Source: an uncultured Thiodictyon sp.
Lineage (GTDB): Bacteria > Pseudomonadota > Gammaproteobacteria > Chromatiales > Chromatiaceae
Length of the DNA: 64,000 bases
Assembly (NCBI RefSeq): GCF_903946935.1
Contig: NZ_CAJAXH010000008.1
Location: 1-64,000 of the forward strand
Direction of reading: 5' to 3'
Part shown: in pieces, positions 123 to 29,985 of the stretch
How the letters are laid out: each line of letters begins with the position of its first letter
Position numbering within the stretch: position 1 is the first letter of the stretch
The notes under the pieces: generated by a model
Databases searched by the model: none
The model's input: only the letters and a program-made list of their open reading frames with translations
Told to the model about the DNA's origin: nothing
Made by a program: the position numbers and the translations under genes

Positions 123-1529
123 TCATCCTGCGGTACTAGGTGCATACCCTAGTGCGTCGGCTTCTTGGCGATTCTTAGACGTTTCCCATAACGGGAACGT
201 ATTTTGATCGTCTGTTGTTTTATCCTTATCCTTTGCTTTAGTCTTGTGCGAGGCTAAGTAATCCTTTAACTGCTGCACTGACATTGGGTCAGTATCCGGC
301 GGGTCTGTCAGGTCAACAATCCCCTTCCTTTTCACAAAGACGAATCGCTGAAGCGCGGCTGCTACGTCTATGTTCCTATCACACGCGCGACGGGCATTGG
401 TGCGCGGGGGCAGTGGCGGCGGATTCAACGTCTCAGCATTATCGAACATTTGCGCAACCGTGGGCTTGCCCGTTTCGGTGTCGCTTCGGTCCCATGCTCG
501 CCAGATTTGGCGGTGTTGGTCGGGCTTATCCGCGGCTAAGTTCTCAGCATAGAACGCGACGTGAAAATACTCTTTCTCGGTGAAACCCCACTTCTTGAGC
601 CGTCCCGCCAGCATGAACAGGTACCCGCTCCCGGTAGTATCCCCGCCGGTCTTATCCCCGGTAACATACTTGCGAAGCTCGCTATCTTGATCTTTCGCAG
701 CGTTGAAGCGAACCATAAGAAGCCGCGCTTCTTCGTCACCCAGCGGGGTTTCGTCTCCCGTCTCCTTCGTGCTCCCGGTAGACTGCGCCCCACTGTGCGC
801 AACCGTAACTGCAACCGCAACATTAGAAAGCGCGGCTTCCATATCTTCCACGCTGTACAGCGCACCGGGGTTATGAGCCAGCAAACCCGAAAGGCCCGCT
901 TCAACCGGGTAGCCTTTTGCAAGCTTCTTGGCTGTCGGGTGGTTGAGCGTCCCGGGCAGTCGCATTAGCCGGGATATGTCCTGGCAGTTATCCCCGCCGT
1001 GCGATAACGCCAGCTTCTTGTTAAGTGTCTCAATCCGTGCGATTGCTTCCCCCCGTGCGGGTTCTTCGTCGGGTAACGTGAAACTGTTGCGCAGCTTCCA
1101 GAACACCCCTAAGCCGTTCCCCGAGTCCACAATAAAGGTCGGGGGGTGCGCCGATGCTTGGAGCATGGGCACGGTGCTGTTAAGCAGATGCCCCCGGGCG
1201 GCTGCAAGGTCCGGGTCTATGTCAACGTGAAGGTACTCCGCGGCTGCAATGTGCTCTTTCCCGACACTGCGCCGACTCTCGATTCCTTCACGGTGCGGGT
1301 TCACGGTGAAGTAGAGGTTAGCAGATGGGATTCTTTCAGCGTTGTGGCTCCACGCGTGCCCGGCTGCATCATCGAAGCCGAACACGTCACCCGTAAACCG
1401 GGTATCAACCCGGTTGGCCCCTTCCACGATACGGGCAATGTTCACTTCCCCACCGTCCCGAAACAGGGAAAGGAAGGTGTCAATCTCTTGAATCTGTTGC
1501 GTGCGGTTGAGTTGTGCGGTATTATTCAT
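123..1529 (-). CDS. RepB/AEP-type DNA primase of an integrated element
   Basis: A 468-residue protein that looks like a primase of plasmids, phages or satellite elements. The N-terminal 220 residues contain YLHVDIDPD (acidic metal-binding motif), DSGNGLGVFW and DISRLMRLPGTLNHP, the order seen in archaeo-eukaryotic primase/RepB-like domains. A helical segment around residues 300-350 (FMLAGRLKKWGFTEKEY) resembles a primase C-terminal region. It would make primers for replication of the element. It is the last leftward gene after the integrase and the small gene at 1694-2014, as in integrated satellites. Base composition is visibly less GC-rich than the core genes. The C-terminus lies 21 bp from an IS630 relic and could be altered by it. 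The family call rests on motifs only. Confidence 0.6.
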   Translation of the reverse strand: MNNTAQLNRTQQIQEIDTFLSLFRDGGEVNIARIVEGANRVDTRFTGDVFGFDDAAGHAWSHNAERIPSANLYFTVNPHREGIESRRSVGKEHIAAAEYLHVDIDPDLAAARGHLLNSTVPMLQASAHPPTFIVDSGNGLGVFWKLRNSFTLPDEEPARGEAIARIETLNKKLALSHGGDNCQDISRLMRLPGTLNHPTAKKLAKGYPVEAGLSGLLAHNPGALYSVEDMEAALSNVAVAVTVAHSGAQSTGSTKETGDETPLGDEEARLLMVRFNAAKDQDSELRKYVTGDKTGGDTTGSGYLFMLAGRLKKWGFTEKEYFHVAFYAENLAADKPDQHRQIWRAWDRSDTETGKPTVAQMFDNAETLNPPPLPPRTNARRACDRNIDVAAALQRFVFVKRKGIVDLTDPPDTDPMSVQQLKDYLASHKTKAKDKDKTTDDQNTFPLWETSKNRQEADALGYAPSTAG

Positions 1530-1567
1530 GTTCGTGTTTCCTGTCGCTTCGGGGGATACGTTGCCGG

Positions 1568-1593
1568 TGCAACCGATCCCGGGATCGGTTGCA
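1568..1593. repeat. perfect 26-bp palindrome upstream of the primase gene
   Basis: A perfect self-complementary sequence centred on gatcccgggatc, 39 bp upstream of the primase start. Such a site could be an operator for a dimeric repressor or part of a replication origin used by the primase. No protein partner is visible, so the role is inferred. Confidence 0.55.
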
Positions 1594-1645
1594 TCGGGGT
1601 TGCGGTCTGGTAAACCGCGGCTTTTGGGTTTGAGGTTGAGTTCTT

Positions 1646-1682
1646 AAGGCCCCGTGCAGGCTAGTCGCCACGCCGGGGCCTT
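1646..1682 (+). terminator. GC hairpin followed by T-rich run
   Basis: The arms aaggccccg and cggggcctt flank an 18-nt loop and are followed on the + strand by ttttctttg. On the minus strand it lies between the 106-residue gene and the primase, so it could also act as an attenuator. The T-rich run is on the + strand, where no gene precedes it. Confidence 0.4.
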
Positions 1683-1693
1683 TTCTTTGCGCG

Positions 1694-2014
1694 TCAGGCG
1701 GCGGCTTTGCGTGCCTGTGCGAACGCAGCCCGGGCGGCTTGGTGTTGTTCTTCCCGGACCCGTGCCCACCTCACCACGCAGCCGCGGGCCTCGTGCCGCA
1801 GGTCCGGTGCCGGCTCAATCACCATGCGCCCTTGTTCAACGGCTTCCAGAGCTGCGAAAATAAGGGCCTCGGTGACGGCATAGCGGGTTGTCCCGTGGCG
1901 CACGGCGGCGGCGGCAATGGCCTCACGCGTGGCCAAGTCAACGGCAATGGCGCCGCGGTGCGGTGCCCGGGGGACGGCGGGGGGCGGGGTGTAGCTTGCG
2001 GCGGCGGTCGGCAT
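1694..2014 (-). CDS. Small protein of the integrated element, function unknown
   Basis: A 106-residue protein between integrase and primase. The middle (about residues 25-70, DLATREAIAAAAVRHGTTRYAVTEALIFAALEAV in pieces) is helical and could be a DNA-binding fold such as ribbon-helix-helix or a small HTH. The C-terminus is Arg/Ala-rich. Its place matches the regulatory or excision genes of satellite elements, but no family is recognised. A purine-rich GGGAGC lies just before the ATG. Confidence 0.4.
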   Translation of the reverse strand: MPTAAASYTPPPAVPRAPHRGAIAVDLATREAIAAAAVRHGTTRYAVTEALIFAALEAVEQGRMVIEPAPDLRHEARGCVVRWARVREEQHQAARAAFAQARKAAA

Positions 2015-2087
2015 GGTGGCGGGGCTCCCGTGTTGTTACTGCTTCTTACAGAATAAGCAGCCGGGAGCCCGAAAGCAATGAAAACGC

Positions 2088-2107
2088 CGGGGGCGAATCA
2101 ACCCCCG
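2088..2107 (-). terminator. Likely terminator of the integrase gene
   Basis: Read on the minus strand, the arms cgggggt and ccccccg-like (six G-C pairs, 8-nt loop) are followed by gcgtttt. It lies 27 bp past the integrase stop at 2134, where an intrinsic terminator would be expected. The T-run is short. Confidence 0.4.
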
Positions 2108-2133
2108 CTTAATACGAGTTAAAAAAACTACGA

Positions 2134-3459
2134 TTAGGAAATTTTATATCGCACTTTTTCAACCGCTTCACGCAGCACAGCGACACCCGGCCCCGCGCTG
2201 TAATTCCCGAACGACATTGAGTTTCTACCGTGCCCCGCAAGCGACTCTGCAACCGACTGGGGTACTCCCGCGGCTTCCAGCTTCGTTATGAAGGACTTGC
2301 GCATACAGTGCAGATTCAGCGAGCCATCAAAGCCCCAAACGGTCTTATATCGGCTAAACCTGTTTGATGCAGGGCGCGAACGCTTGTTATCGACTCCCGC
2401 GGGCGTTAAGCCGGGAATCAGATACTCATCGGCACCAAGCCCGGTAACATAGCAAGCTAGCGCACTATGCACGGGAACACTGCGCAAACTGTTCTTGTTC
2501 TTGGCCTCACGAATCACAAAGCAGTTATCTACGATGTCCGAACCGCGGATGTTGCATACTTCCTCTGCACGCATACCGCTATACAGTGCAACGTGAACAA
2601 GCGTAAACATATAATCATCGGGCGGCAGTTCTTCCCGCATCTTGTTTAGTAACTGCGAAAGCTCGCTATCTGTCCACGCACGCACGGCGGCGGGGTTAGT
2701 AACTCCGCGTGTCGTGTCACGCACAAGCTTGGTGAGATTTTCGGAAGGATCGGCGTCCAGCAAGCCCGATGCCTTCGCCCAACGGAAGAACACCCGCAGG
2801 TCTACCACGAACGCCTTTTTCGTCTTGGGTGCGAGGTCGGCGGCGGTCACATGGGAGCGCACGAACCCGGCAAGGTCCGCACGGGTGACGCTGGCAAGGG
2901 GCGGGTCCTTCAGGGCCTCTACCAAGGCGTTCAGGCGGCGGCAGCGGGTTCTGACAGTGGAGGGGCGGGCGTGGGCCAGGTCGGCAAGGTGGGAGGCTAC
3001 AGCGGCACTCAGGGCCAGTGGCAGGGGTTCCCCAGTAAGGAGCGCGCGGGCCTCTGCCATGGCGGGGGCAAGGTCCGGGGGGAAGGTCAAACCGTTGGGG
3101 TCTGAGTCGCGCGCCCGGTGCCACGCCTCAAGGTCGAACCCCTCTAGGGCGTCACCCGGGCGGACCCTGCCCAGCGCCACCTCTGCGGCAACGGCAGCCC
3201 CTACCGCGAGGATACCCGCGGGCGTGGTCCACTCGGGTGCAGCCGTCCGGTGTGCAGCCCAAGCCCGTTCAAGGTCGCCAAGGGCGATATTTCGGCGTTG
3301 CTGCGCTTCCTTAAGGTCGCGCGTCTTGAGCGACTGGACGATGATCTTACCGCCAAGGAAGGCGGGCTTGCGCACCACGAGGTACCATGTCAGGCTACCC
3401 CGTTGGGTTAGATGTTTGGTGTCTTGCTTGGTCTTGCTCACTGATTGCCCCCGATACAT
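2134..3459 (-). CDS. Tyrosine site-specific integrase
   Basis: A 441-residue phage/island-type tyrosine recombinase that would integrate and excise the element. Catalytic landmarks are visible in the C-terminal half: the first Arg in ALYSGMRAEEVCNIRG (about residue 297), HCMRKSF (His-x-x-Arg), GHGRNSM and the Tyr in SFGNYSAG. The N-terminal 270 residues hold a core-binding domain (LADLAHARPSTVRTRCRRL). It is the outermost gene, reading into the element, so the attachment site should lie in 3460-3660; no tRNA gene is seen there. Alternative starts exist (a GTG a few codons in). Two direct repeats and an inverted repeat sit just upstream. Confidence 0.85.
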   Translation of the reverse strand: MYRGQSVSKTKQDTKHLTQRGSLTWYLVVRKPAFLGGKIIVQSLKTRDLKEAQQRRNIALGDLERAWAAHRTAAPEWTTPAGILAVGAAVAAEVALGRVRPGDALEGFDLEAWHRARDSDPNGLTFPPDLAPAMAEARALLTGEPLPLALSAAVASHLADLAHARPSTVRTRCRRLNALVEALKDPPLASVTRADLAGFVRSHVTAADLAPKTKKAFVVDLRVFFRWAKASGLLDADPSENLTKLVRDTTRGVTNPAAVRAWTDSELSQLLNKMREELPPDDYMFTLVHVALYSGMRAEEVCNIRGSDIVDNCFVIREAKNKNSLRSVPVHSALACYVTGLGADEYLIPGLTPAGVDNKRSRPASNRFSRYKTVWGFDGSLNLHCMRKSFITKLEAAGVPQSVAESLAGHGRNSMSFGNYSAGPGVAVLREAVEKVRYKIS

Positions 3460-3482
3460 GCCCCCGGGCGGGGGCGGACGGG

Positions 3483-3505
3483 GGCATGTTATGCAGGCAT
3501 GTTAT
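3483..3505. repeat. Two 10-bp direct repeats upstream of the integrase
   Basis: The word ggcatgttat occurs at 3483-3492 and again at 3496-3505, 13 bp apart. Spaced direct repeats next to an integrase gene can be arm-type or excisionase binding sites; that role is inferred. Confidence 0.45.
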
Positions 3506-3537
3506 ACATAGCAAGGCGCAGCAGTCCTTGCTATGTA
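3505..3537. promoter_or_regulatory. 12-bp inverted repeat, possible operator or attachment core
   Basis: tacatagcaagg and its exact complement ccttgctatgta flank nine bases. The sequence is AT-richer than its surroundings and lies 46 bp upstream of the integrase start. It could be a repressor operator or part of the recombination site. Confidence 0.45.
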
Positions 3538-3565
3538 AGCATTTTAGGGGCTTACATGCTGAAAC

Positions 3566-3588
3566 GGACGGGGTTTCAAACCCCGTCC
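3566..3588. repeat. REP-like palindrome, ggacgggg family
   Basis: The arms ggacgggg and ccccgtcc flank a 7-nt loop (tttcaaa). The same arms recur at 6880-6901 and 41996-42017, so this is a dispersed element rather than a one-off terminator. No T-run follows. Confidence 0.6.
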
Positions 3589-3664
3589 CGCCAGAAGCCC
3601 GCATTGCCAACCCGCCCCGCCGCGGGTATAAAGCCCTAAACCCACGCCCCCGACGGACCCCGCC

Positions 3665-6600
3665 ATGCCCGCCGCCAGCCAGGCTCGCCGCGACCGCGAT
3701 TTCGAGCGCCCGTTCGAGCTCTTCGTCAGCTACTCGCACGCCGCCGAGCCGATCAAGGACCGGCTGCTGGTCCACCTGGCACCGCTGAAGCGTGCCGGGC
3801 TGATCTCGACCTGGACCGACCGGGAGATCCCGCCCGGAGAACTTTGGCGCGATGAGATCGCCGCCGCCATCGAGCGCGCCGACGGGGCCCTCTTCATCGT
3901 CTGCGCGGACTTTCTGAACTCGGCGTTCTGCATGGACGAGGAACTGCCCGCCTTCCTCGCCCGTCGGCGCGACGCCGGCACCCTGGTCCTCTTCGTGCTG
4001 GCGGACCATTGCAACTGGGACCTGGACCCGATCATCAAGGCGCACCAGATGGTGCCCAGGGACGCCAAGCCCATCACCACCCACCGGCCCAAGTCCATGG
4101 CCTACACCGCCGTGGTGCGCGAGATCCATCAAGTCCTGGATTGGCACCGCAAGGACCGCGGCCTGGCCCGGCGCAGCGCCCAGCCGATTGCGCCCACCGA
4201 CCGCACCCAGGACGCCCTAGCCGCCCTGCTCGCCGAGCTCCCCGGCGCCACCGCCCGCCTCTATGGCCGCGCGGCGGACCTGGCCCGCCTCGACACCCGC
4301 TTCGGCGGCGGACCGCGGCCCAGTCAAGGCGGCGTGCTGCTGTGGGTCGCCCCCGGCGGGGTCGGCAAGTCGGCCCTCACCCGCTGGTGGATCGCGCACC
4401 GCGACTGGCCGGCCGGCACCCGCTGCATCGGCCACTCCTTCTATTCGCAGGGCAGCCACAACCAGAGCGTCAGCGCCCGCGCCTTTCTGTTCCGCGCGCT
4501 GGCGGAACTGGGCGACACGCCCGAGCCCACGACCTCGGACTACGACCTCGGCCACCGGCTCGCCGGGCTTGCCGCCGCGGCCCCGACCCTGATCGCGCTC
4601 GACGGGCTGGAGCCCCTACAGCAGGCGTCCGCCGACCCCAAGCTTAACGGCCAACTCAAGGACCAGGGGCTCGCCGCCCTGCTCGAAGGGCTCGGGCCCG
4701 CCCCGGGCCAGGCACTGTGCCTGGCGTCCTCGCGCCTGCCGATCCCGGACCCGCTGATCGAGTGCCAGCCGGCCTTCCACCAGGTCCGGCTCGGTGTACT
4801 GCCGCGCCCGGGGGCGGTCGAACTGCTCGCGGCCCGCGGCCTCACCGGCACCCCGGACCAACTCGACGCCCTGGCTGGGCGCTGCGCCGACCACCCGCTA
4901 GCCCTGGTCCTGGCCGCGGAGCTGACCCACGGCTTTCTCGACAACCAGGCCCAGACCTTTCTGGACCGCGATTGGCCGGTGCCGGCCGCCGCGGGACCCG
5001 ACCGGCACGCCGCCACCGTCATGGGCTGGTTCGATGAGGCACTGCGCGACGAGCACGCGGCCCTCGACCGTGCCCTGGTGCGGGTGCTCGGGCTCTTCGA
5101 CCGCCCGGCGCCCTGGGGGGCGATCCAGGCACTCAAGGAACAGGACCCGCCCATCGCCGGGCTGACCGAGCCGCTGCATAGGGCCACGGACGCGGAGCTC
5201 GAGGAGGCGCTCGCGCGGCTGCGGCAATGGGGGCTCGCGGACCGGGACAGTCACGGGGCCGGCGCTGGGTGTTTTTTTGGGTTACACGCCGACAGAATGT
5301 CGGCGCTCCTTGACGCCCACCCGCTGGTGCGCGAGCACTTCGGGCGCGCACTGGAGCAGGAGGCACCCGCGGCCTGGCGGGCGGCCCATGGGTTGCTGTT
5401 CAACTGGTTCCGGGCACTGCCCGAACAGCACCGGTCGGATACGCTGGAAGGGCTGGAGCCGCTCTACCGGGCGATCGGGCATGGGTGTCGGGCGGGGCGG
5501 TATGCACAGGCGCGGCGCGAGGTCTACCAGGACCGCATCCTGCGCGGCGACCAGTACTACAGCCTGTTACAACTCGGCGCCATCTCCTCGGACCTCTCGG
5601 CCCTGGCGGGCTTCTTCCCCGATGGGTGGTCGCGGGCGCCGGTGACCGGGGACCTGAGCGAACCCGAGCGCTCCTGGCTGATCGCCACGGTCGCCTACTG
5701 TCTCATGTCGCTCGGCCGACTCGACGAGGCACTGGGGCCGCGGCGGATGGAGCGTGAGCAGTGGCGCGAGGCCGGGGACTGGGACAGCTTCTGTCGCTCA
5801 TCGGAGAACCTGGTCGATCTGCTGACTCCGCTCGGCAATTGGCGTGAGGCCGAGTCAGTGGCGCGCGAGGCGCTGGAGACCGCGGGACGCGTCGTAGACA
5901 AGGACAAGGCCCGGCGACTCGGGCTCGCGGCTCTGGCCCGCATCGGCCGTGCATTGCAGGGTCAGGGCCGACCCCTGAAGGCGGCGCAGGCCTTCGCCAA
6001 GGCCGAGGCCGTACAGACCGAGCGCACTCCGCACCTGCCGACGCTAGTGGGCCTGGATGGTTTCGACTACGCCCAGCTCTTGCTGGAGCAGGCCCGGACC
6101 CCGGCCGAGCTCCGCGCGGTGCTGGAGCGCGCGCGGGCGTCACTGGCGATAGTCGAGCCTGCAGGTCATCTTGTGTCCGTCGCACTCGACCACTGCACCA
6201 TCGGCCAGGCACTTGCCAGGCCGAACGGATCGGCGGGCGGCTCCGATAGCGAGGCTCGGGAAGCCGGCGCCCTGGATCTGGCCATCGAGACCATGCGCCG
6301 GGCCAGCAAGACGCAATACCTGCCGCTCCTGTACCTCACGCGCGCCCACCACCGCCGCACCCAGGCCGATCCGTCCGGCGCCCGTGCCGACCTCGAGTCC
6401 GCACTCGCCATCGCCACCCCGCCCGGCATGCGCACCTACATCGCCGAGGCCGCCCTGCTGGCCGGTCAGCTCGCCTTGGACCGGGCCCAGGCCGGCACCG
6501 CGCCAAACCCCGCCGCCCCGGACCCGGTCCCCGAGGCCGCCCGGCACTGGACCCAGGCCGATCTCTTAATTCGCGAGACCGGCTACGCCCGCCGCGAGGC

Positions 6601-8689: not shown

Positions 8690-8986
8690 TGGCGTTTACC
8701 GGGGTTGAGCAGGAATCGGTCAGGACCTCGTAACATCTCGATGGGCGCTCGCATGACCCGAAGAGCGGTATGGCGGACCATCAGGACCTGCATCAGGCTG
8801 TGCATCGGGGTTATGGAAGCGCGTGGTGCCGCGGTAGATAGAGTCCTCGCCCTGACCCAGGTCGAAATAGGGGTCGGGCGCACGAGCATAGCTTGTGTGG
8901 GTTGCGGGCGTGACCATCTTGAGCGACCGCTCCCTCAAGCCCGCCTGGCGCGCCGCGCGGCAGCAGAAACCCGGCGGCGAGGGCAT
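8686..8986 (-). pseudogene. Possible decayed gene upstream of the AIPR gene
   Basis: About 350 bp separate the AIPR start from rsmI. On the minus strand one frame carries THTSYARAPDPYFDLGQG and EDSIYRGTTRFHNPD, which looks like real protein; a second frame then carries MRAPIEMLRGPDRFLLNPGK and stops in a TGA overlapping the AIPR ATG. The two frames together look like the 3' end of a frameshifted gene once coupled to the AIPR gene. No family is recognised. It could also be chance. Confidence 0.3.
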
Positions 8987-9041
8987 GCGCGCGCTGCTCC
9001 AGGGCGGCGGGACCGATGATCAAACCGGGAGCGCAACGCCC

Positions 9042-9914
9042 CTACTCCTTAAGCAGCCCCTGCCCCAACCCCAGCTCAATCCCCATCCGATACAGGTCGT
9101 TCTTGCGCCCGCCGGTGAGACGGGCGGCCAGTCCCGCGGCCCGGCGCAGCGGCAGTTCGGCGGCAAGTACACGCAGCACGCGCTCCTGCTCCACCTGGTC
9201 CGCGGACCCCGCGTCCGGCAAGCCCTCGATCAGGAGGACCATCTCCCCCAGGCGCTGCTCGTCCTCGGCCGTCAGCCGGTCGGCCAGCTCCCGCACGGTG
9301 CCGCTAAGGAAGGTCTCGAAGCGCTTGGTGAGCTCCCGGCCCACCACGGCGCGGCGGGTCTCCCCGAGCACGGTCGCCGCATCGGCCAGCGTCAGGGCGG
9401 CGCGGCGGCCGCTTTCGTAGAGGATCAGGGTGCCGGGTTCCCGCGCGACGGCCTCTAGCCAGACCCGCCGCTGGGCGCCGGTGCGGGGCGGAAAGCCGAG
9501 GAAGAGGAAGCGGTCGCTGGGCAGACCGGCCGCCGATAGTGCGCAAATGGCGGCATTGGCCCCGGGGACCGGCACCACGGTGAGCCCCCGGGCGCGGGCA
9601 GCGACGACCAGATCGTAGCCCGGGTCGCTGATCAGGGGGGTGCCGGCGTCCGAGACCAGGGCGACACTGAGCCCAGACTCCAGGGTCTCGATCAGACGGG
9701 CGGCGGCCGTGGCCTCATTGTAGTCGTGATAGGCGATGAGCCGGGTGGTAATGCCGCAATGGGCCAGTAGTCGGCGGGTCTCGCGGGTGTCCTCGGCAGC
9801 GATCAGGTCGACGTCCGTCAGGACCTTGCGCGCCCGCTCGGTCAGGTCGCCCAGATTGCCGATAGGCGTTGCCACCACGTATAGTAAGCCACGTCGTTCG
9901 TCCATTCCGATCAT
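9042..9914 (-). CDS. rsmI: 16S rRNA (cytidine(1402)-2'-O)-methyltransferase RsmI
   Basis: A 290-residue SAM-dependent methyltransferase that methylates the ribose of C1402 in 16S rRNA. The family signature is complete: LYVVATPIGNLGDLTERA at the N-terminus, AEDTRETRRLL, LVSDAGTPLISDPGY and VPVPGANA. The length matches the family. A second ATG nine bases inside (MDERRG) is also possible. It is divergent from lpoA with only 26 bp between starts, the arrangement found in Enterobacteria and many other gammaproteobacteria. Each promoter must therefore overlap the neighbouring coding sequence. Confidence 0.95.
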   Translation of the reverse strand: MIGMDERRGLLYVVATPIGNLGDLTERARKVLTDVDLIAAEDTRETRRLLAHCGITTRLIAYHDYNEATAAARLIETLESGLSVALVSDAGTPLISDPGYDLVVAARARGLTVVPVPGANAAICALSAAGLPSDRFLFLGFPPRTGAQRRVWLEAVAREPGTLILYESGRRAALTLADAATVLGETRRAVVGRELTKRFETFLSGTVRELADRLTAEDEQRLGEMVLLIEGLPDAGSADQVEQERVLRVLAAELPLRRAAGLAARLTGGRKNDLYRMGIELGLGQGLLKE

Positions 9915-9940
9915 CCCGCTGCTGTAATGGAACGTCTATC

Positions 9941-11302
9941 ATGCACCAAGATCGCCCCGTCCCCCACGCGTATTGTGCCCCGGCCCGGGTCGCCGGCACC
10001 CTGATCCTGGCCCTCGCCCTGAGCGGCTGCGCCGGCTTCCCCTGGCAAAAGGCGCCGCCGCCCAACACCCGCGGCGGCTATGCGGCCGGCGACAAGCTGC
10101 TGGTCATCCTGCCCGGCAAGGGTCCGGTGGCAGAGGCGGCCAACGCGATCCGCGAGGGGCTGCGTGCGGCCAACGGTGCGGACGACACGGCCGCCAAACC
10201 GGCCTTGACCTTCATTGCCAACGACGACCCGAAAAAGATCCCGGTTGCCTATCAGGAGGCCATCGGCGCGGGCGCAACCCAGGTGATCGGCCCGCTGCTC
10301 AAGCCCGCCGTGGACGTCCTGGCGGGCGGCCCGGCGCTGAAGGTGCCGACCCTGGCACTGAATCAGACGACCAGGCCCGGCAAGCCTGCGGCCAATCTCT
10401 ATCAGTTCGCCCTGGCCCCGGAAACCGAGGCGGTGGAGGTGGCCAACAAGGCGAAGGCCCTGGGTTTCACGCGCGCGCTGATGCTCTCCCCCAAGGGCGA
10501 GGCGGGGAGCCGGCGCACCGAGGCCTTCCGCCACCAGTGGAAGACGCTCGGCGGGACCCTGGTGGGCGAGGCCAGCGTCGACCCGGGCACGGCAAACCTG
10601 GCCAAGCCACTGAACGCCTTGTTGCACAAGGGCGCGGCGGACTTCCTGTTCCTGGCCACCGACGCCGACCAGGCCCGCAAGGTCTATCCGGCGGTGCGCG
10701 ACGGGTCGGTCGCACTGCCGGTGGTGGCCACCTCCGCGGTCTATTCCGGTCAGCCCGACCCGGTTCGGGACCAGACACTGGCCGGGCTGTATTTCGTCGA
10801 CGCCCCCTGGGTCCTGGGGGTGGGTGCGGCGGATGATCCGCTGGCACGCAGCAAGCTCAAGCGGGGCTCCAATGCGCTCGCCACGCCGCTGGGACTGCGA
10901 CTCTATGCCATGGGCATCGACGCCTACCGGCTGGCCCCGCGCCTGAGCACGCTGGCCAAGGGCGCGAACGCCACCTTCCCGGGCGAGTCCGGCACCCTGT
11001 CGATCGACGGCGCCGGGCGGGTCCAACGCCAACTGACGCTGGCCCAGTTCACCGCGAGCGGCCCCCAGCCGACGACCGCCATGGTGGCGGCCAAGCCCGG
11101 CGCGCCGGCCACGGCGGCACCGGCCGACCAGCCAGCCAAACCCGCCAAGGCAAAGCGTGCAGCCAAGCCCAAGCCCGCCGCCAAACCAAAACCCGCCGCC
11201 CAGACAGCGCCCGCGGCCAACCCGGAGCCGCCGACCCCGATCGCGCGGCCGCAGCCCATCGCCCCGGTGCCGCGGCCGGAGCCGGTCGCGCAGCCCGGGT
11301 GA
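9941..11302 (+). CDS. lpoA: Penicillin-binding protein activator LpoA (lipoprotein)
   Basis: An outer-membrane lipoprotein that stimulates PBP1A during peptidoglycan synthesis. The ATG at 9941 was chosen because it gives a signal peptide ending in the lipobox LALSGC (Cys about residue 28). The body has a type-1 periplasmic-binding-protein fold (VILPGKGPVAEAANAIREG; GATQVIGPLLKPAVDVL). The C-terminus is a long Pro/Ala/Lys-rich tail (PAKPAKAKRAAKPKPAA). At about 453 residues it is shorter than the E. coli protein because the N-terminal TPR domain is missing, as in many non-enteric LpoA proteins. It forms an operon with yraN (4-bp overlap) and dolP. Confidence 0.88.
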   Translation: MHQDRPVPHAYCAPARVAGTLILALALSGCAGFPWQKAPPPNTRGGYAAGDKLLVILPGKGPVAEAANAIREGLRAANGADDTAAKPALTFIANDDPKKIPVAYQEAIGAGATQVIGPLLKPAVDVLAGGPALKVPTLALNQTTRPGKPAANLYQFALAPETEAVEVANKAKALGFTRALMLSPKGEAGSRRTEAFRHQWKTLGGTLVGEASVDPGTANLAKPLNALLHKGAADFLFLATDADQARKVYPAVRDGSVALPVVATSAVYSGQPDPVRDQTLAGLYFVDAPWVLGVGAADDPLARSKLKRGSNALATPLGLRLYAMGIDAYRLAPRLSTLAKGANATFPGESGTLSIDGAGRVQRQLTLAQFTASGPQPTTAMVAAKPGAPATAAPADQPAKPAKAKRAAKPKPAAKPKPAAQTAPAANPEPPTPIARPQPIAPVPRPEPVAQPG

Positions 11303-21250: not shown

Positions 21251-21363
21251 CAAGCGAAATTCCTTGGCTCGATCATGATTCGGAGAAAGGACCCTGTGGA
21301 TCTCAAGCCCGTCGACCCGGCGGGCCTTGATCATAACTCCGGCCTGCGGCGATCGGTTCGCTG

Positions 21364-21416
21364 CGCGGACCAACGGCCTCGCCGTCAGCGCGGCGGCCAG
21401 GATTACGACCGAGGCC
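21364..21416 (+). repeat. 53-bp dispersed repeat, copy 1
   Basis: Begins gcggaccaacggcctcgcc and ends acgaccgaggcc. A near-identical copy lies at 29510-29561, and a more diverged copy in reverse orientation at 39342-39393. Here it sits between the orphan ATPase and hsdR. Confidence 0.65.
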
Positions 21417-21497
21417 ACCCCGCGATGCCGCTGCCCTTGGGGTCAGACTTGGGCTAAACTTCCCGCGCTCATCGACCACCTAGGACAGGAACGCCCC

Positions 21498-24281
21498 GTG
21501 CCCACCCCCGAAGAACTCGCGCGCCAAGAAATCGACCGCCAGTTGGAAGCCGCCGGCTGGCAGGTTCAGGATTTCAAGACCATGCACATCCATGCCGCCG
21601 CGGGTGTGGCGATTCGGGAATTTGAGCTCAAGGCGGGTACCGTCGACTACCTGCTGTATGCCGGCGGTCAAGCCATCGGCGTGGTCGAGGCCAAACCCAA
21701 GGGTCATACGCTGACCGGGGTGGAGTTCCAATCATCGAAATACACCTTTGGCTTGCCGGACCAGGTCCCGGTCTGGCATCGCCCCTTACCCTTCGCCTAT
21801 GAAAGCACGGGGGCCGTGACTCAATTCACCAATGCGCTCGACCCCGAGCCCTGCAGCCGGGAGGCATTCACCTTCCATCGCCCCGAAGAATTGTTGCGTC
21901 TGGTCCAGTTGGACACCCAATTGCGCGGACGGCTGCAACAGTTGCCGCCGCTGGACACCGAAGGGCTGTGGGCGGTGCAGACGACGGCCATTACCAACGT
22001 GGAACACTCACTGGCCCACCAGCGCCTGCGCGCACTGGTCCAGATGGCGACCGGATCGGGCAAGACCTATACCACCGTCTCGCTGTGCTACCGACTGATC
22101 AAGTTTGCCAAGGCCAGGCGCATCCTGTTCCTGGTGGACCGCAACAACCTCGGCCGGCAGGCCTTCAACGAATTCCAGCAGTATCAAAGCATCGCCACCA
22201 ACTACAGCTTCACCGAGGAATACCCGGTGCAGCGACTGACCAAGAATACCATCGACCCGGCCGCCAAGGTGGTCATCACCACCATTCAGCGGCTCTATTC
22301 CATACTGCGGGGCGAGCCGGAGTATCGGGAAGAGAACGAGGAGGAATCGCTCTTTGAATCGGCCAGCCCGCTGGGGCACGAGGCCCTGCCGGTGGTCTAC
22401 AACCCGCTGATCCCGATTGAGACCTTCGACTTCATCGTCATCGACGAATGCCACCGCTCCATTTATAACCTGTGGCGGCAGGTCCTGGAATATTTCGATG
22501 CCTTTCTGATCGGCTTGACGGCCACGCCCTCGCCCCAGACCATCGGCTTTTTCCACGGCAATGTGGTGCAGGATTACTCCCATCAGCGGGCCGTGGCCGA
22601 CGGTGTCAATGTCGGCTATGACGTCTATCGCATCGCCACCCGGATCACCGCGGCCGGCGCCACGCTGGCCAGTCAACCCGGCTTTTTCGTTCCGCACCGC
22701 GACCGCCGGACCCTGAAACGGCGCATGGCGGAACTGGATGGCGACCTCACCTATACCGCCAACCAATTGAATGTGGACGTGGTGTCCATGCCGCAACTGC
22801 GCCTGATCGTGCAGACCTTCCGCGACCGGCTGTTCACCGAGATATTCCCCGGCCGCATCGACGTACCCAAGACCCTGGTCTTTGCTCGCAATGACCTGCA
22901 CGCCGAGGATATCGTGAAGGTCATCCGCGCTGAATTCGGCAAGGGCAACGACTTTTGCGTCAAGATCACCTCCAAGACGACCGGCGAGAAACCTGAGACC
23001 CTGCTGCAACGGTTTCGCAACAGCTACCTGCCCCGGATCGCCGTCACCGTCGACATGATCGCCACCGGCACCGATGTCAAGGCCATCGAGTGTCTGCTGT
23101 TCCTGCGCAACGTCAATTCGGCCTCCTATTTCGAGCAGATGAAGGGCCGGGGCGTGCGCATCATCGACCACGACAGCCTGCGTGCCGTGTCCGGCTACCA
23201 GACCCCATCCAAGACCCGTTTTGTCATCGTCGATGCCGTGGGCGTCTGCGCGCGGGACAAGACCCAATCCAAACCGCTGGACCGCAAGCCATCGGTCAGT
23301 TTTGACAAGGTGTTGTCACTGGTCGCCCAGGGTGTCGTCCATCCCGACCTGGTGTCCACCCTGGCGGCGCGATTGGCGCGGCTGGCCCTGGAGATGAACA
23401 CGGAGCAGGCGGCCGAAGTCCGGGCCACCGCCGGCCAACCCATCGAGGGGCTGACGACTGGACTGCTGGAATCGCTCGACCCCGACCTGAACGAGGCGCG
23501 GGCCAGGGTCATGTTCAAACTGCCACCGGACACCGAACCAACCGAACAGCAATTGGACGCCGCCGAGCGCGCGGCCATGGGCGCGGCCCTGCGGCCGTTT
23601 TGCGATCCGGCGCTGCGCGAGCTATTGCTCAGGATCAAGCGTAGCCTGGAGCAGGTCATCGACGAGGTCAACGAGGACGAGTTGCTGACCGCCGGATTCG
23701 ACTCGGCGGCACGGGACAAGGCGCAAGCGGTCATGGGCGAACTGCGCGCCTTTTGCGAGGCGCATCGTGACGACATCGAGGCATTGCAACTGCTGTATCG
23801 TAAACCGCACCGGGCCGGGCTGCGCTACCGGCAAATCAAGGAACTGGCCAAGCAATTGAACCGCGCACCCTTCCATATCGATCCGGCCAAACCGGACAGC
23901 GTGTTGCAGCTTTGGCGCACACAGCGGCAGGCCGAACCTGAGCAGACCCAGGGCGAGCCCAGGGGGCTGGTGGACCTCATTGCACTGGTGCGCCATGCAC
24001 TGCACCCGCAGGAGCCGGTGATCCCGCTACAAACCGAAATCGAGGCGCGTTACCTGGACTGGCTGAACGATCAGGCGACGCGCGGCATCACCTTTAGCCC
24101 GGAACAACGTGAATGGCTGGACATGATCAAGAACCATGTGGCGACGAGCCTGGCCATCGATCGGGAGGATTTTCAGGAGACGCCCTTTATCCAGCGCGGC
24201 GGGCTGGGGAAGGTGTATCAGTTGTTTGGCGATAAGCTGGAGATGGTCTTGGATGAGTTGAATGAGAGGTTGGCGGCGTGA
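21498..24281 (+). CDS. hsdR: Type I restriction enzyme, R subunit (HsdR)
   Basis: A 927-residue motor/nuclease subunit that translocates DNA and cuts it when the HsdMS methylation pattern is absent. N-terminal nuclease: Asp in GTVDYLLYAGG and VVEAKPKG (ExK), residues about 48-68. Helicase: QMATGSGKTYTTVS (motif I, about 180-193), FIVIDECHRSIYN (DECH, about 311-323), then ARNDLHAEDIVK, ATGTDVKAIECLL and QMKGRGVRI (C-terminal RecA motifs). The GTG start at 21498 is preceded by aggacagga; an in-frame extension upstream comes from the dispersed repeat and is unlikely to be coding. The stop overlaps hsdS (gtga). Confidence 0.92.
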   Translation: MPTPEELARQEIDRQLEAAGWQVQDFKTMHIHAAAGVAIREFELKAGTVDYLLYAGGQAIGVVEAKPKGHTLTGVEFQSSKYTFGLPDQVPVWHRPLPFAYESTGAVTQFTNALDPEPCSREAFTFHRPEELLRLVQLDTQLRGRLQQLPPLDTEGLWAVQTTAITNVEHSLAHQRLRALVQMATGSGKTYTTVSLCYRLIKFAKARRILFLVDRNNLGRQAFNEFQQYQSIATNYSFTEEYPVQRLTKNTIDPAAKVVITTIQRLYSILRGEPEYREENEEESLFESASPLGHEALPVVYNPLIPIETFDFIVIDECHRSIYNLWRQVLEYFDAFLIGLTATPSPQTIGFFHGNVVQDYSHQRAVADGVNVGYDVYRIATRITAAGATLASQPGFFVPHRDRRTLKRRMAELDGDLTYTANQLNVDVVSMPQLRLIVQTFRDRLFTEIFPGRIDVPKTLVFARNDLHAEDIVKVIRAEFGKGNDFCVKITSKTTGEKPETLLQRFRNSYLPRIAVTVDMIATGTDVKAIECLLFLRNVNSASYFEQMKGRGVRIIDHDSLRAVSGYQTPSKTRFVIVDAVGVCARDKTQSKPLDRKPSVSFDKVLSLVAQGVVHPDLVSTLAARLARLALEMNTEQAAEVRATAGQPIEGLTTGLLESLDPDLNEARARVMFKLPPDTEPTEQQLDAAERAAMGAALRPFCDPALRELLLRIKRSLEQVIDEVNEDELLTAGFDSAARDKAQAVMGELRAFCEAHRDDIEALQLLYRKPHRAGLRYRQIKELAKQLNRAPFHIDPAKPDSVLQLWRTQRQAEPEQTQGEPRGLVDLIALVRHALHPQEPVIPLQTEIEARYLDWLNDQATRGITFSPEQREWLDMIKNHVATSLAIDREDFQETPFIQRGGLGKVYQLFGDKLEMVLDELNERLAA

Positions 24282-25840
24282 CTATTAGCCGATGGAAAAC
24301 GCCTGAGACTTGGGTATGGAGTCGCATGGGTGAGGTGAGCAGGATTGTCAGTGGCGGGACTCCGCGCACTGATGAGATTGATAACTACAGAGACGGTGAT
24401 ATCCCATGGATTACGCCCGCCGATTTGTCTGGCTATAATGAGAAATATATTTCCCGGGGAAGACGTAACATTACTGAAAAGGGAATGTTAGCGTCATCGG
24501 CAGTCCTTATGCCGGCTGGCTCCGTGTTATTTAGCTCTCGCGCGCCGATTGGTTACGTTGCAATAGCACAGAACGACTTAACAACCAATCAGGGCTTCAA
24601 GAGCTTTGTTTTGCAAAAGGAATTAGAGCCTCACTTCTTATATTACTACCTCAAGTTTGCGAAGGCATTAGCCTTAGAACTAGCTAGCGGCACAACGTTC
24701 CAAGAAATCTCTGGTCGATCGGTGGCTTTGCTCCCAATTGTTATTCCGCCACACCAGGAACAACTGCGAGTCATCGCCAAGATCGAGGAAATATTCTCCG
24801 ACCTAGATGCCGGAATCGTCGCACTGGAACGGGCAAGAGCGAATGTTAAGCGTTACCGTGCCTCAGTACTCAAGGCCGCCGTTGAAGGCAGGCTGACGGC
24901 GGAATGGCGAAAGAGCAATCCTCCGACCGAAACCGGCGCGGAATTGTTGGCCCGCATCCTCAAAGAACGTGAAAAACAGAGCGCTAACCAACAAGTTAAT
25001 AATACCTCCAGACCGAGAAAAGAATCGATAGCCTGTCGGGACAAATGTTTGCCGCCGCTTGATGCCGACACGAACCGACTTCCAGGATTGCCTGACGGCT
25101 GGTGTTGGGCGAGAGTCGCGATTGTGGGTGACGTGATAGGTGGACTTACGAAGAACCCGAAGCGGGCGGCCCTGCCGAAGAAGCTGCCGTATCTTAGAGT
25201 TGCAAATGTCTACGCTAATGAGCTTCGCCTTGAAGAAATCGAAGAGATCGGGGTAGAAGACGAGGAACTTGAGAGGCTGCTGCTGAATGAAGGAGATTTA
25301 TTGATTGTCGAGGGCAACGGAAGCCCAGATCAGATCGGGCGGGTCGCCGTTTGGGATGGCTCTATTACGCCATGCGTCCATCAAAATCATTTGATCAAGG
25401 TGCGGATGAAATTCGGGTGTACACCGAGATGGGGTCTTAACTGGTTCTTGTCTCTGGATGGAAGACGCCATATTCGGAATATTGCAAGTTCCACTTCTGG
25501 CTTATACACACTAAGCGTCGGAAAGGTTCGCTCACTCCCAATACCGCTACCCCCCATTGCAGAACAAACTGAAATCACGAACGAAATCGAGAGCCGCCTC
25601 TCCATCGCCGACGCCACCGAAAAGACCATCGACAGCGCACTCAAGCGCGCCGCCCGTCTGCGCCAAGCCATCCTGAAACGCGCATTTGAAGGCCGCCTGG
25701 TGCCGCAAGACCCCAACGACGAGCCGGCCAGCGCGCTGCTGGAACGCATCCGCGCCGAGCGGGCCAAACAGAAACCCGCGGTGTCCAAACGCACCCGCAA
25801 GACCGAACCCACTGAACCCACTGATGCCCATGGAAACTGA
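24278..25840 (+). CDS. hsdS: Type I restriction specificity subunit (HsdS)
   Basis: A 520-residue specificity protein with two target recognition domains. TRD1 is about residues 1-150 (SGGTPRTDEIDNYRDGDIPWITPADL), followed by the first conserved helix (QEQLRVIAKIEEIFSDLDAGI). TRD2 is about 265-430 (LPYLRVANVY, GDLLIVEGNGSPDQIGR), followed by the second helix (EQTEITNEIESRLSIADA). The TRD-coding DNA is clearly more AT-rich than the flanking genes, as expected for exchanged specificity modules. It starts at GTG overlapping the hsdR stop. The recognition site cannot be deduced. Confidence 0.92.
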   Translation: MTISRWKTPETWVWSRMGEVSRIVSGGTPRTDEIDNYRDGDIPWITPADLSGYNEKYISRGRRNITEKGMLASSAVLMPAGSVLFSSRAPIGYVAIAQNDLTTNQGFKSFVLQKELEPHFLYYYLKFAKALALELASGTTFQEISGRSVALLPIVIPPHQEQLRVIAKIEEIFSDLDAGIVALERARANVKRYRASVLKAAVEGRLTAEWRKSNPPTETGAELLARILKEREKQSANQQVNNTSRPRKESIACRDKCLPPLDADTNRLPGLPDGWCWARVAIVGDVIGGLTKNPKRAALPKKLPYLRVANVYANELRLEEIEEIGVEDEELERLLLNEGDLLIVEGNGSPDQIGRVAVWDGSITPCVHQNHLIKVRMKFGCTPRWGLNWFLSLDGRRHIRNIASSTSGLYTLSVGKVRSLPIPLPPIAEQTEITNEIESRLSIADATEKTIDSALKRAARLRQAILKRAFEGRLVPQDPNDEPASALLERIRAERAKQKPAVSKRTRKTEPTEPTDAHGN

Positions 25841-26891
25841 GTCCACTCCCTGCACGCTCACCATTACCGGCACTGAAACGGCACGACACAGTGCGTCCAT
25901 CGAAACCGTGACCAAGGTGTTGAACGGCATTCAGAAGACCGCTTTTCTCCTGGCGACGGCGAAACATCAACAGCCACTGCAGACGCGCTTTAGCCCGAGC
26001 AAGGACATCAAGCGACTTTACACCCTGCAAGTGGGCATACCGGAACCCGGCAGCTATCGCCTGCCGATTATCCAGTTGTCGCTCGAACCCGATCTCTTCC
26101 CGGAACACGACATCCTATCCGCGGTGAACGAACTGTTTGCTACGGTCGCGAACGGCTCGCGTGAGCGCTTGCAAGGACTGTTGCCGGATTCGCGGTTTCT
26201 CGAAAAGGTGCTAAGGGAAATGGCCCGGTTTCTGCCCAGGCCGGGCAGCCGTTGGGGAATGAGCTTTCAGCATGGCGCCCAACCGCCGGTAACGCTTGAG
26301 TCAAAAGTAGTCCGCACGGTCGAGCACTGGCTGCTACAGGAAGAGGAACAGGACGCCACCATGACCGTCACCGGGGAGTTGATTCGAATCGATTTCGACA
26401 AGAATCTCGTCACCTTACGCTACCCACCGACGGCCCGTGAGCTGGAATGCAGCTATGTGCAGGATATCGAGGACACCATCGTCGAGAATCGGCGCGGCCT
26501 GATCCAGGTCACCGGACGCTTCACGCTTGATACCGAAGGCCATCCGAAGAGCCTGACCGATGTGTCTCGCATCGAGCCGGTGGATCTAAGTCAAATGATA
26601 TTCGACTCATTCGAGCAGGGCGAGAGGGCCTTGTGCCTCGATCCGCCGCTGGTTCTCGAACCCTTCCTGGACGAAGAAAGTCAACAGCTATTGATCGTTA
26701 CGGACGATGTATTTGACTTGCGTGTCTATGCGCAAACGCGCGAACAGTTGGCGGACGATTTGGCTGCGGAGATGTTCTTTTTATGGGACGAATATGGTAA
26801 GGAGCCCGCGGAACAATTAACGGTAACGGCGCAGCAACTGCAAGCCGCGTTGTTGAACCGCTGCCGGGAGGAGAAAACCCATGCCGCGTGA
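25824..26891 (+). CDS. Unknown protein in type I RM operon, antitoxin-like C-terminus
   Basis: A 355-residue protein beginning MPMETESTPCTLTITGTET, overlapping the hsdS end by 17 bp. No named domain covers most of it. The last 60 residues (DDVFDLRVYAQTREQLADDL, EMFFLWDEYGKEPAEQLT) resemble the short C-terminal domain found in antitoxin-like proteins paired with HicA-type toxins (a 'TREELL...LWEEY' pattern). The next gene is HicA-like and overlaps by 11 bp, so the two look like a pair placed between hsdS and hsdM. No membrane segment or signal peptide is seen. Antitoxin function is inferred. Confidence 0.5.
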   Translation: MPMETESTPCTLTITGTETARHSASIETVTKVLNGIQKTAFLLATAKHQQPLQTRFSPSKDIKRLYTLQVGIPEPGSYRLPIIQLSLEPDLFPEHDILSAVNELFATVANGSRERLQGLLPDSRFLEKVLREMARFLPRPGSRWGMSFQHGAQPPVTLESKVVRTVEHWLLQEEEQDATMTVTGELIRIDFDKNLVTLRYPPTARELECSYVQDIEDTIVENRRGLIQVTGRFTLDTEGHPKSLTDVSRIEPVDLSQMIFDSFEQGERALCLDPPLVLEPFLDEESQQLLIVTDDVFDLRVYAQTREQLADDLAAEMFFLWDEYGKEPAEQLTVTAQQLQAALLNRCREEKTHAA

Positions 26892-27165
26892 TAAGCGGAA
26901 AATCGAAGAGGCTCTAACCGGCAAAGGGTTCGAGCGCAATGAAGGCGATCATCATTTTTTTGTTTACCGAACTATCAAAGGTCGCAAGACCAGCATTCGC
27001 ACGAAAACCAGCCACACACCCAAGATGAAGGAAATCGGTGACAGTATACTCACGCAAATGGCGAAGCAATGTCACTTGAACAAACAGGAATTTCTCAATC
27101 TTGTCGACTGCCCTTTGAGCCGGGAAGGCTTTGAAACTCTGTTAGCGGACCGGGGCAAGCTATGA
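26881..27165 (+). CDS. HicA-like small toxin candidate in type I RM operon
   Basis: A 94-residue basic protein. The N-terminal 60 residues follow the HicA pattern: KRKIEEALTGKGFERNEGD, then HH (residues 24-25) and a beta-rich KTSIRTKTSHTPKMKEI. The HicA catalytic motif is usually G-S-H-H; here the Ser is Asp but the His pair is kept. HicA proteins are mRNA interferases with a dsRNA-binding fold. The C-terminal 30 residues (NLVDCPLSREGFETLL) are an extra extension. It overlaps the upstream gene by 11 bp and hsdM by 4 bp, so it is translated with the RM system. RNase activity is inferred. Confidence 0.55.
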   Translation: MPRDKRKIEEALTGKGFERNEGDHHFFVYRTIKGRKTSIRTKTSHTPKMKEIGDSILTQMAKQCHLNKQEFLNLVDCPLSREGFETLLADRGKL

Positions 27166-28709
27166 ACAACCTGACCCAGCAAATCGTCAACAAGGCCTGG
27201 AATTTCGCCCATGTCCTGCGCGACGACGGACTGTCCTATATGGGCTATACGGAGCAGATCAGCCTGCTGCTGTTCCTCAAGATGGCCCATCAGCAAACCC
27301 TACCGCCGCACAATCAACCACACATCGTGCCGCCGGATCTCGGCTGGACCAGTCTGCTGCGCCGGGACGGCGACGAACTGGAGATTCATTACCGCCATGT
27401 CCTCGAGGAACTGGGAAAGAAGCGCGGGATGCTCGGCGAGATCTTCAAGAAGGCCCGCCCGGATATCCAGAACCCGGCGACCCTCAAGCGGTTGATTGTC
27501 GATCTCATCGAACCTGAGAACTGGCTGTCCATGGACGCCGACATCAAGGGTGACATCTACGAGGGCTTGCTGTCACGGTCAGCGGAAGAGTCACCCAAGG
27601 GCGCCGGGCAATATTTTACCCCGCGGGCGGTCATCAAGGCCATCGTCGATGTGATGCAGCCGGCACCAGAGGATACGGTCTGTGATCCGGCGTGCGGCAC
27701 CGCCGGTTTTCTACTGGCGGCGCACCACTATGTGTCACGCCATTTCGGCGCGGCGCTCGATCCCGACCAGAAGCGCCACCTGCGCACCGGTTTCGTTAAG
27801 GGCGGGGAGTTGGTACCGGCCACCGGACGCCTGGCCATCATGAATCTCATGCTGCACGGCATCAATGCCAGTCCCTGCCCAATCCGCTCCGGTGTCGACA
27901 GCCTGGCCAGCGACCCGAGCGAAAAGTTCAGCCTGGTACTGACCAATCCGCCGTTCGGCAAGAAGAGCACCATCGCCATCGTCAACGGCGAAGGCGATCT
28001 GGAAAAGGAGGACCACACCTACGAGCGCCAAGGCTTCTGGGTGACGACCAAGAATAAACAGCTCAATTTCCTGCAACATGTCACCACGCTGCTCAAGATC
28101 AACGGGCACTGCGCCATCGTGGTTCCCGACAATGTGCTCTTTGAGGGCGGGGCCGGCGAAACCATTCGGCGTACCCTGCTCAAGCAATATGACGTGCATA
28201 CCCTGTTGCGGCTGCCGACCGGGATCTTCTACGCCCAAGGGGTCAAGGCCAACGTGTTGTTCTTCGATGCCAGGCCTGCTCAGGAAGCCCCGTGGACGCA
28301 CAAGCTGTGGGTCTATGATTTCCGCACCAATATCCATTTCACTCTGAAGACCAACCCGTTGCGGCGCAAGCACTTGGATGACTTCATCGGCTGCTGGTTC
28401 AACATCGCACCCGACGCGGTCGCGGCGATGCGCGATCCCAAGCAATCGCTACTCCCGCCGTCACTGACGCGATTCAACCGGGAGCCAACCTTCAGCGCGG
28501 AAAGCCCGGAGGGCCGCTGGCAGTGCTTCGATTATGCCGACCTGATCAAACGCGACAAGGCGAATCTCGACATCTTTTGGCTCAGGGACAAGGGCCTGGA
28601 AGACGCGGAGAACCTGCCGGAACCGGACATGCTGGCCGCGGAAATCGCCGACGATTTGCAAGCCGCCTTTGAGCAATTCAGCTCGATTGCGGCCGAATTA
28701 CAGGCATAA
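27162..28709 (+). CDS. hsdM: Type I restriction modification methyltransferase (HsdM)
   Basis: A 515-residue N6-adenine methyltransferase subunit. The N-terminal helical HsdM_N domain (QIVNKAWNFAHVLRDDGLSYMGYTEQI in pieces) precedes the catalytic domain with SAM motif I DPACGTAGFLLAAH (about 177-190) and catalytic motif IV TNPPFGKKS (about 261-269). With HsdS it protects host DNA; with HsdR it forms the restriction complex. It is the last gene of the hsdR-hsdS-X-Y-hsdM operon and overlaps the preceding gene by 4 bp. hsdM being downstream of hsdR and separated from hsdS by two genes is unusual. Confidence 0.93.
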   Translation: MNNLTQQIVNKAWNFAHVLRDDGLSYMGYTEQISLLLFLKMAHQQTLPPHNQPHIVPPDLGWTSLLRRDGDELEIHYRHVLEELGKKRGMLGEIFKKARPDIQNPATLKRLIVDLIEPENWLSMDADIKGDIYEGLLSRSAEESPKGAGQYFTPRAVIKAIVDVMQPAPEDTVCDPACGTAGFLLAAHHYVSRHFGAALDPDQKRHLRTGFVKGGELVPATGRLAIMNLMLHGINASPCPIRSGVDSLASDPSEKFSLVLTNPPFGKKSTIAIVNGEGDLEKEDHTYERQGFWVTTKNKQLNFLQHVTTLLKINGHCAIVVPDNVLFEGGAGETIRRTLLKQYDVHTLLRLPTGIFYAQGVKANVLFFDARPAQEAPWTHKLWVYDFRTNIHFTLKTNPLRRKHLDDFIGCWFNIAPDAVAAMRDPKQSLLPPSLTRFNREPTFSAESPEGRWQCFDYADLIKRDKANLDIFWLRDKGLEDAENLPEPDMLAAEIADDLQAAFEQFSSIAAELQA

Positions 28710-29742: not shown

Positions 29743-29985
29743 ATGGCCCAGCGCTTCGACCGCATGAACGGCCAGCCTTGCATTCGCGGGATGCGGCTCA
29801 CCGTGCGACGGGTGGTCGCGGCGGTCGCCCTCTATCCGGACCGCGCTGAGATGAGGCGCGAGTATCCCGAACTGGAAGATGAGGATATCCGCCAGGCCCT
29901 GGAGTATGCGGCGGAAAGCGTCGAGGATCAGATCATCAGCTTGGAGTCCAAGGCTTCAGCCTTGGTCCTGTCCATCCAAGGCTGA
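29743..29985 (+). CDS. Orphan DUF433 antitoxin-type protein ending in a repeat
   Basis: An 80-residue DUF433 protein (RFDRMNGQPCIRGMRLTVRR; EYPELEDEDIRQALEYAA). This subfamily is normally followed, with overlap, by a DUF5615 PIN-like toxin, as at 15255-15874. Here no toxin gene follows. From residue about 66 the protein is encoded by a palindromic repeat (SLESKASALVLSIQG), so the native C-terminus and the partner gene appear to have been lost. It may still repress or be non-functional. Confidence 0.65.
   Translation: MAQRFDRMNGQPCIRGMRLTVRRVVAAVALYPDRAEMRREYPELEDEDIRQALEYAAESVEDQIISLESKASALVLSIQG

Follow-up and report, generated by a model that had tools for sequence, protein, structure and literature searches.

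A coupling of immunity systems to toxins, mostly without a typical antitoxin, has been argued for before (Makarova et al. 2012, PMC3506569). Toxin-like genes intervening in type I restriction-modification (RM) loci have been on record from the Campylobacter rlo genes onward (cited in PMC2610378). Tested precedents for a toxin joined to type I RM include PrrC (PMC12707154) and DarTG2, which lies between hsdS and hsdR in a type I RM operon of EPEC (the RRDM island, which protects against phages); the hsdS|hsdR interval was proposed as a hotspot in the same study (PMC12255303). HicA, the toxin of the HicAB toxin-antitoxin (TA) systems, is an mRNA interferase (cited in PMC2701414). In the passages of Gerdes (2024, mBio, PMC10865869) that describe Class 8 hicBA, the antitoxin gene comes first, the two genes often overlap, and a DNA-binding domain is lacking. 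There, the Class 8 HicB has 342 to 356 aa and three domains (residues 1 to 171; 175 to 253, lysyl-tRNA-synthetase-like; and 255 to 342, with a HicB fold), and the Class 8 HicA, of ~95 aa, has an alpha-beta-beta-beta-alpha fold followed by two small C-terminal helices. The string "hsd" is absent from the main text of that paper, and its Class 8 passages describe no association with type I RM, type III RM, or DISARM.

Here, we describe a pair of this kind in a 64,000-nucleotide stretch of DNA (the window) from an uncultured Thiodictyon sp. Genes for HsdR, HsdS, a 355-aa protein, a 94-aa protein, and HsdM form one operon on the + strand (Table 1), and the presence of hsdR, hsdS, and hsdM together, recognized with Pfam, PADLOC, and NCBIfam models, identifies it as a type I RM operon. 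The first-pass annotation had put two overlapping genes in the hsdS-hsdM interval, the successive overlaps being 17, 11, and 4 bp, and these coordinates were exact. The open reading frame (ORF) of the 355-aa protein overlaps hsdS by 17 bp (or by 11 bp, if an alternative in-frame ATG at 25830 is used) and that of the 94-aa protein by 11 bp; the latter overlaps hsdM by 4 bp (ATGA).

Table 1. Features of the type I RM operon and its inserted gene pair (window positions)
Feature	Position	Strand	Evidence
hsdR, type I restriction subunit	21327..24281	+	Pfam ResIII 1.8e-36, EcoEI_R_C 2.5e-32; NCBIfam PRK11448 2.5e-110
hsdS, type I specificity subunit	24278..25840	+	Pfam Methylase_S 5.4e-33; PADLOC Specificity_I 9e-107
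hicB-like putative antitoxin, Class 8, 355 aa, three domains	25824..26891	+	AF2 domains; homologs always upstream of hicA-like gene; fit to PMC10865869
C-terminal putative antitoxin core of the 355-aa protein	26577..26888	+	Part always retained beside the toxin
hicA-like putative toxin, 94 aa	26881..27165	+	PF07927 2.7e-4; hhalign 97%; Foldseek 1whz prob 1.00
hsdM, type I methyltransferase	27162..28709	+	Pfam N6_Mtase 9.9e-64; PADLOC MTase_I 4.7e-176

The extent listed for hsdR is that of its open frame, and its start is probably the GTG at 21498. The frame of the 355-aa gene is open from 25686, and homologs point to the ATG at 25824 as its start. Upstream of the 94-aa gene is a good ribosome site (GGGAGGAG); the 355-aa gene has none, which suggests that its translation may be coupled to that of hsdS. 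Neither RNA families nor strong repeats were found at the gene junctions. Homologs of both genes occur in the same order as in the window, and dN was ~8 to 20% of dS in those pair comparisons where dS was unsaturated, indicating purifying selection; the two genes are therefore not chance ORFs. Downstream of hsdM, the window also contains an 80-aa ORF (positions 29743 to 29985, + strand), which we take to resemble a DUF433 antitoxin with no obvious adjoining toxin.

The 94-aa protein had been called HicA-like, with a GDHHFF motif in the place of G-S-H-H, and both points were borne out. With the Pfam HicA model, the window protein alone scored below the cutoff (21.4 versus 27 bits), but 12 of the 15 members of its family matched PF07927. 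Profile comparison (hhalign) of the family with ordinary HicA proteins from the same genomes gave a strong match (E value of 6e-11), and it aligned His24 of the GDHHFF motif, invariant in 15/15 family members, with the G-S-H of the ordinary HicAs. The AF2 model (pLDDT of 84.5) has the double-stranded RNA-binding domain (dsRBD) fold, with helices predicted at residues 5 to 14, 54 to 63, 68 to 76, and 81 to 90 and strands at residues 17 to 21, 25 to 30, and 36 to 42; the last ~30 aa contribute two extra C-terminal helices. Its best solved Foldseek match was Thermus HicA (1whz, E value of 8e-3), and Burkholderia pseudomallei HicA matched as well (TM-score of 0.69, normalized to its own length). 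Given what is known of the HicA family and the conserved His, the 94-aa protein is probably a ribonuclease toxin.

No library model matched the 355-aa protein in searches that included Pfam, PADLOC, and NCBIfam, which likewise returned no DNA-binding domain. Sequence searches of solved structures gave nothing usable. An AF2 model built with 12 homologs (pLDDT of 85, pTM of 0.49) consists of an alpha/beta domain (residues ~10 to 170), an OB-like barrel (residues 177 to 252), and a C-terminal part (residues 258 to 351) predicted to form four strands and then two helices. Against the PDB, this model mainly matched OB-fold proteins (RPA, SilF, and LysRS/LysU), and these matches were weak (E value of ~0.05). 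Against viral models, it matched phage proteins of the DUF6575 type with E values of 2e-10 and 1e-9 at low TM-scores (0.38), the best fold match being a record from Leptospira phage LE1. HicB was not among the best 50 whole-chain Foldseek matches of the 355-aa protein.

The C-terminal stretch had also been likened to antitoxins that pair with HicA, a likeness supported by anatomy but not shown by profile. By hhalign, the match between this part and HicB had a probability of 0.4%, versus ~100% for a positive control of two HicB halves; weak matches to PF12910 (PHD_like) were seen in the C-terminal part of 3 of 16 family members. In five related loci, however, the partner adjoining the same toxin consists of just this C-terminal part and a short leader (141 aa in L007, ~110 aa in L008, 106 aa in L019, 142 aa in L051, and ~100 aa in L053). 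Because it is the part common to all toxin partners, the C-terminal ~100 aa is the likely inhibitor. The short partners lack the N-terminal ~250 aa, for which a role in sensing or stability is the best reading. Across 395 genomes from two families, this region occurred only together with the toxin, and all matches were known pairs.

The window pair matches Class 8 hicBA in gene order, protein lengths, modeled domain boundaries, and predicted toxin helices. The antitoxin gene lies upstream and overlaps the toxin gene; the antitoxin has 355 aa versus 342 to 356 aa, and the toxin has 94 aa versus ~95 aa, with two extra helices. The antitoxin has three predicted domains, of which the middle one is OB/LysRS-like by a weak Foldseek match (E value of ~0.05), and in both cases a DNA-binding domain is lacking. 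The large antitoxin-like partner, which had been considered unusual, is thus typical of a described class. The pair itself belongs to this class, and the restriction context is the newer part. The Class 8 passages of PMC10865869 do not include forms with a C-terminal-only antitoxin of ~100 aa, as seen here in L007, L008, L051, and L053.

Counting the window, our searches yielded 23 loci; the other 22 are related pairs or their remnants and span several phyla. Scanning a single genome of each species with a HicA-like alignment gave 15 loci, and the others came from two family-wide searches, one search of relatives, and a plasmid search. The antitoxin gene comes first and overlaps the toxin gene in nearly all complete pairs, by 8 to 14 bp in most relatives. 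Searches of 274 genomes across the class and 399 across the phylum returned just the window's own copy; the Class 8-type family is therefore rare and patchy. Scans of IMG/VR with both proteins found no relative. One pair is located on a Geminocystis plasmid, and another is gp38-gp37 of Methanocaldococcus fervens tailed virus 1 (L197:2989-4282), a full three-domain Class 8 pair annotated as hypothetical proteins (profile E values of 6e-14 and 6e-20). Two loci, both from metagenome bins, carry damaged toxin genes. The hicA-like gene of L015 (positions 10001 to 10285) has an internal stop beside an intact antitoxin gene, both genes being intact in its close relative L014, and in L019 the toxin is truncated and the antitoxin core is intact. 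Damage to the toxin with the antitoxin spared is the asymmetry expected of a toxin and its antitoxin. In two loci, a SocA/Panacea-domain antitoxin gene and a small gene lie downstream of the pair (L014:5914-6916 and L015:10342-11344) and possibly form a second TA module. In L007 (positions 722 to 5421), two dynamin-like GTPase genes lie directly upstream of the short-antitoxin hicBA pair.

The separation of hsdS from hsdM had been regarded as unusual but proved to be the rule in the window's HsdM clade. We collected relatives of the window HsdM in its taxonomic family that had hsdS and hsdM on the same contig in the order R-S-X-M (n = 15, among L163 to L181). In all 15, hsdS and hsdM are 713 to 6,038 bp apart. 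On the basis of Pfam matches, the interval contains DarT and a macrodomain protein (i.e., DarTG) in L169, MNT and HepT in L171, AbiEi/AbiEii in L174, Fic in L167 (and in L172, to judge from its similar first residues), RhuM in L166 (to which L168 is nearly identical), a FitA-type ribbon-helix-helix (RHH) antitoxin in L165, a DUF1016 nuclease in L179 and L180, AAA ATPases in L175 and L181, a Schlafen AlbA_2 protein in L178, an SMC-like ATPase in L163, and only a transposase in L170. The same interval in L019 (positions 2241 to 4336), whose HsdM is 80% identical to that of the window, contains the decayed Class 8 pair followed by HipA_C and HIRAN genes. In more-distant HsdM relatives (40 to 45% identity; L154 to L160), hsdM and hsdS touch, though in the order R-M-S. 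The hsdS-hsdM interval is a cargo slot, occupied mostly by toxin, TA, or other defense genes. We found no paper on this slot within a partial coverage of the literature. The window pair is a putative toxin module inside an immunity operon, placed where relatives of that operon carry other toxins.

Restriction genes were frequent near the related pairs. A type I RM, type III RM, or DISARM gene was located within 3 kb of 10 of the 23 pair loci (the window, L006, L009, L011, L016, L019, L047, L049, L051, and L052), versus 2 of 67 ordinary hicA loci in 19 pair-carrying genomes (that of the window and 18 more). The Fisher P value of 1e-5 is a guide only, given short contigs and incomplete independence among the loci; with the window left out and near-copies collapsed, the counts were 8/17 versus 2/67 (P value of 2e-5). 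A match to a panel protein was counted only if that protein came from another locus; L017, which has an hsdS fragment, would raise the count to 11. In PADLOC searches, a methyltransferase and HsdS were detected in L005 and HsdM was detected in L016. In L049, drmMI and drmA of a class 1 DISARM system flank the pair (positions 8882 to 10226; DrmD, DrmMI, and DrmA by PADLOC), as they do in L009; the pair adjoins drmA in L047 and follows directly behind mod-res of a type III system in L051 (type III Res by PADLOC). A tree built from 17 antitoxins requires at least three changes of the type I label on well-supported branches. Together with the type I, type III, and DISARM contexts, these changes indicate that the module joined restriction systems several times. 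It had been asked whether the pair always accompanies hsdM/hsdS, and it does not: besides the type III and DISARM contexts, roughly half of the pairs stand away from any restriction gene (L007, L008, L010, L012 to L014, L018, L050, L053, and the Geminocystis plasmid pair), so the module needs no RM partner.

The repeated embedding in restriction systems suggests that the pair is a backup suicide or dormancy switch, and the recurrent link to three such systems fits a guard or an addiction role. With moderate confidence, we favor the reading that Class 8 hicBA in the hsdS|hsdM cargo slot of this R-S-X-M operon is a second-layer toxin behind restriction. The C-terminal ~100 aa of the 355-aa protein would keep HicA inactive, the two upstream domains (alpha/beta and OB barrel) would probably sense a signal, and the stop/start overlaps may keep synthesis of toxin, antitoxin, and HsdM in step. 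The trigger could be a phage that causes host shutoff, inhibits the restriction complex, or provides a ligand for the sensor. Once the antitoxin is lost or displaced, HicA would be freed and growth would stop, an arrest that may benefit the host as a second layer behind restriction, with a logic like that of PrrC and DarTG2. A more specific version, in which Class 8 HicB is a dedicated sensor of restriction status and a single architecture guards type I RM, type III RM, and DISARM, seems rather unlikely at present. Its alpha/beta and OB domains would monitor a signal shared by the three systems, such as an anti-restriction protein, the translocating complex, or a nucleic-acid product, and HicA would be released when the type I RM, type III RM, or DISARM system is blocked.

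That the pair is instead a selfish TA module in a tolerant slot, which prevents loss of the operon without monitoring restriction or providing specific defense, is less probable but plausible. Pairs that lack a neighboring restriction gene, that reside on a plasmid, or that are encoded by an archaeal tailed virus are as expected for such a hitchhiker, as is a slot that accepts many unrelated cargos, and defense and TA genes generally cluster in islands (PMC10865869). However, restriction genes are seldom found close to the ordinary hicA loci of the pair-carrying genomes (2/67), so general TA clustering fails to explain the link, and insertion within the operon, on the same strand and with overlaps to both neighbors, also argues against simple hitchhiking. 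We consider it improbable that the pair controls hsdM/hsdS expression or restriction in cis, with the OB domain binding the transcript and HicA trimming it. The position between hsdS and hsdM, the translational overlaps on both sides, and the OB-like middle domain would suit such a regulator, which would act at the RNA level, given the lack of a DNA-binding domain; but the same pair stands beside unrelated genes in DISARM, type III, and stand-alone contexts, and the junctions yielded no RNA family or strong repeat. The position inside the operon is likewise what would lead one to see accessory subunits of the methyltransferase or restriction complex, a very improbable reading that we rejected because homologs adjoin three unrelated restriction systems or occur without hsd genes; members of the HsdM clade, moreover, hold other cargos in the same slot.

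In contrast to the usual lack of typical antitoxins in toxin-coupled immunity systems, a complete putative TA pair, its antitoxin oversized, here forms part of type I, type III, and DISARM operons. The coupling hypothesis thereby becomes directly testable with one module in three restriction hosts; stand-alone pairs, some having the additional antitoxin domains and others lacking them, serve as natural controls. The association with restriction also gives Class 8 hicBA a biological context.

Compared with classical HicAB (Classes 3 and 4), the window toxin shares the dsRBD fold and conserved His of HicA, but the classical toxin gene comes first, whereas here the antitoxin gene does; classical HicB has a helix-turn-helix (HTH) or RHH domain, whereas the window antitoxin has neither and is ~2.5 times longer. 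DUF6575 proteins are phage-borne, and one is an anti-phage system in E. coli (PMC9519451). The whole 355-aa model resembles them by fold only, and at a TM-score of 0.38, either the arrangement differs or the model is uncertain; Pfam DUF6575 (PF20215) matched neither the window protein nor any other protein of the window's genome. PrrC/EcoprrI and RloC (PMC12707154, PMC2610378) are RNA-cleaving toxins within or near type I RM loci that act when restriction fails. The window pair is like a PrrC-type guardian in its position inside the RM operon, but PrrC lacks an antitoxin, being kept in check by the RM complex itself, whereas the window pair encodes a dedicated putative antitoxin. DarTG2 of the RRDM island (PMC12255303) is similar in being a complete TA pair inside a type I RM operon. 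It differs in that its toxin ADP-ribosylates DNA, it occupies the hsdS|hsdR rather than the hsdS|hsdM slot, and it has its own repressor, RptR; the DarTG pair of L169, however, does occupy the hsdS|hsdM slot.
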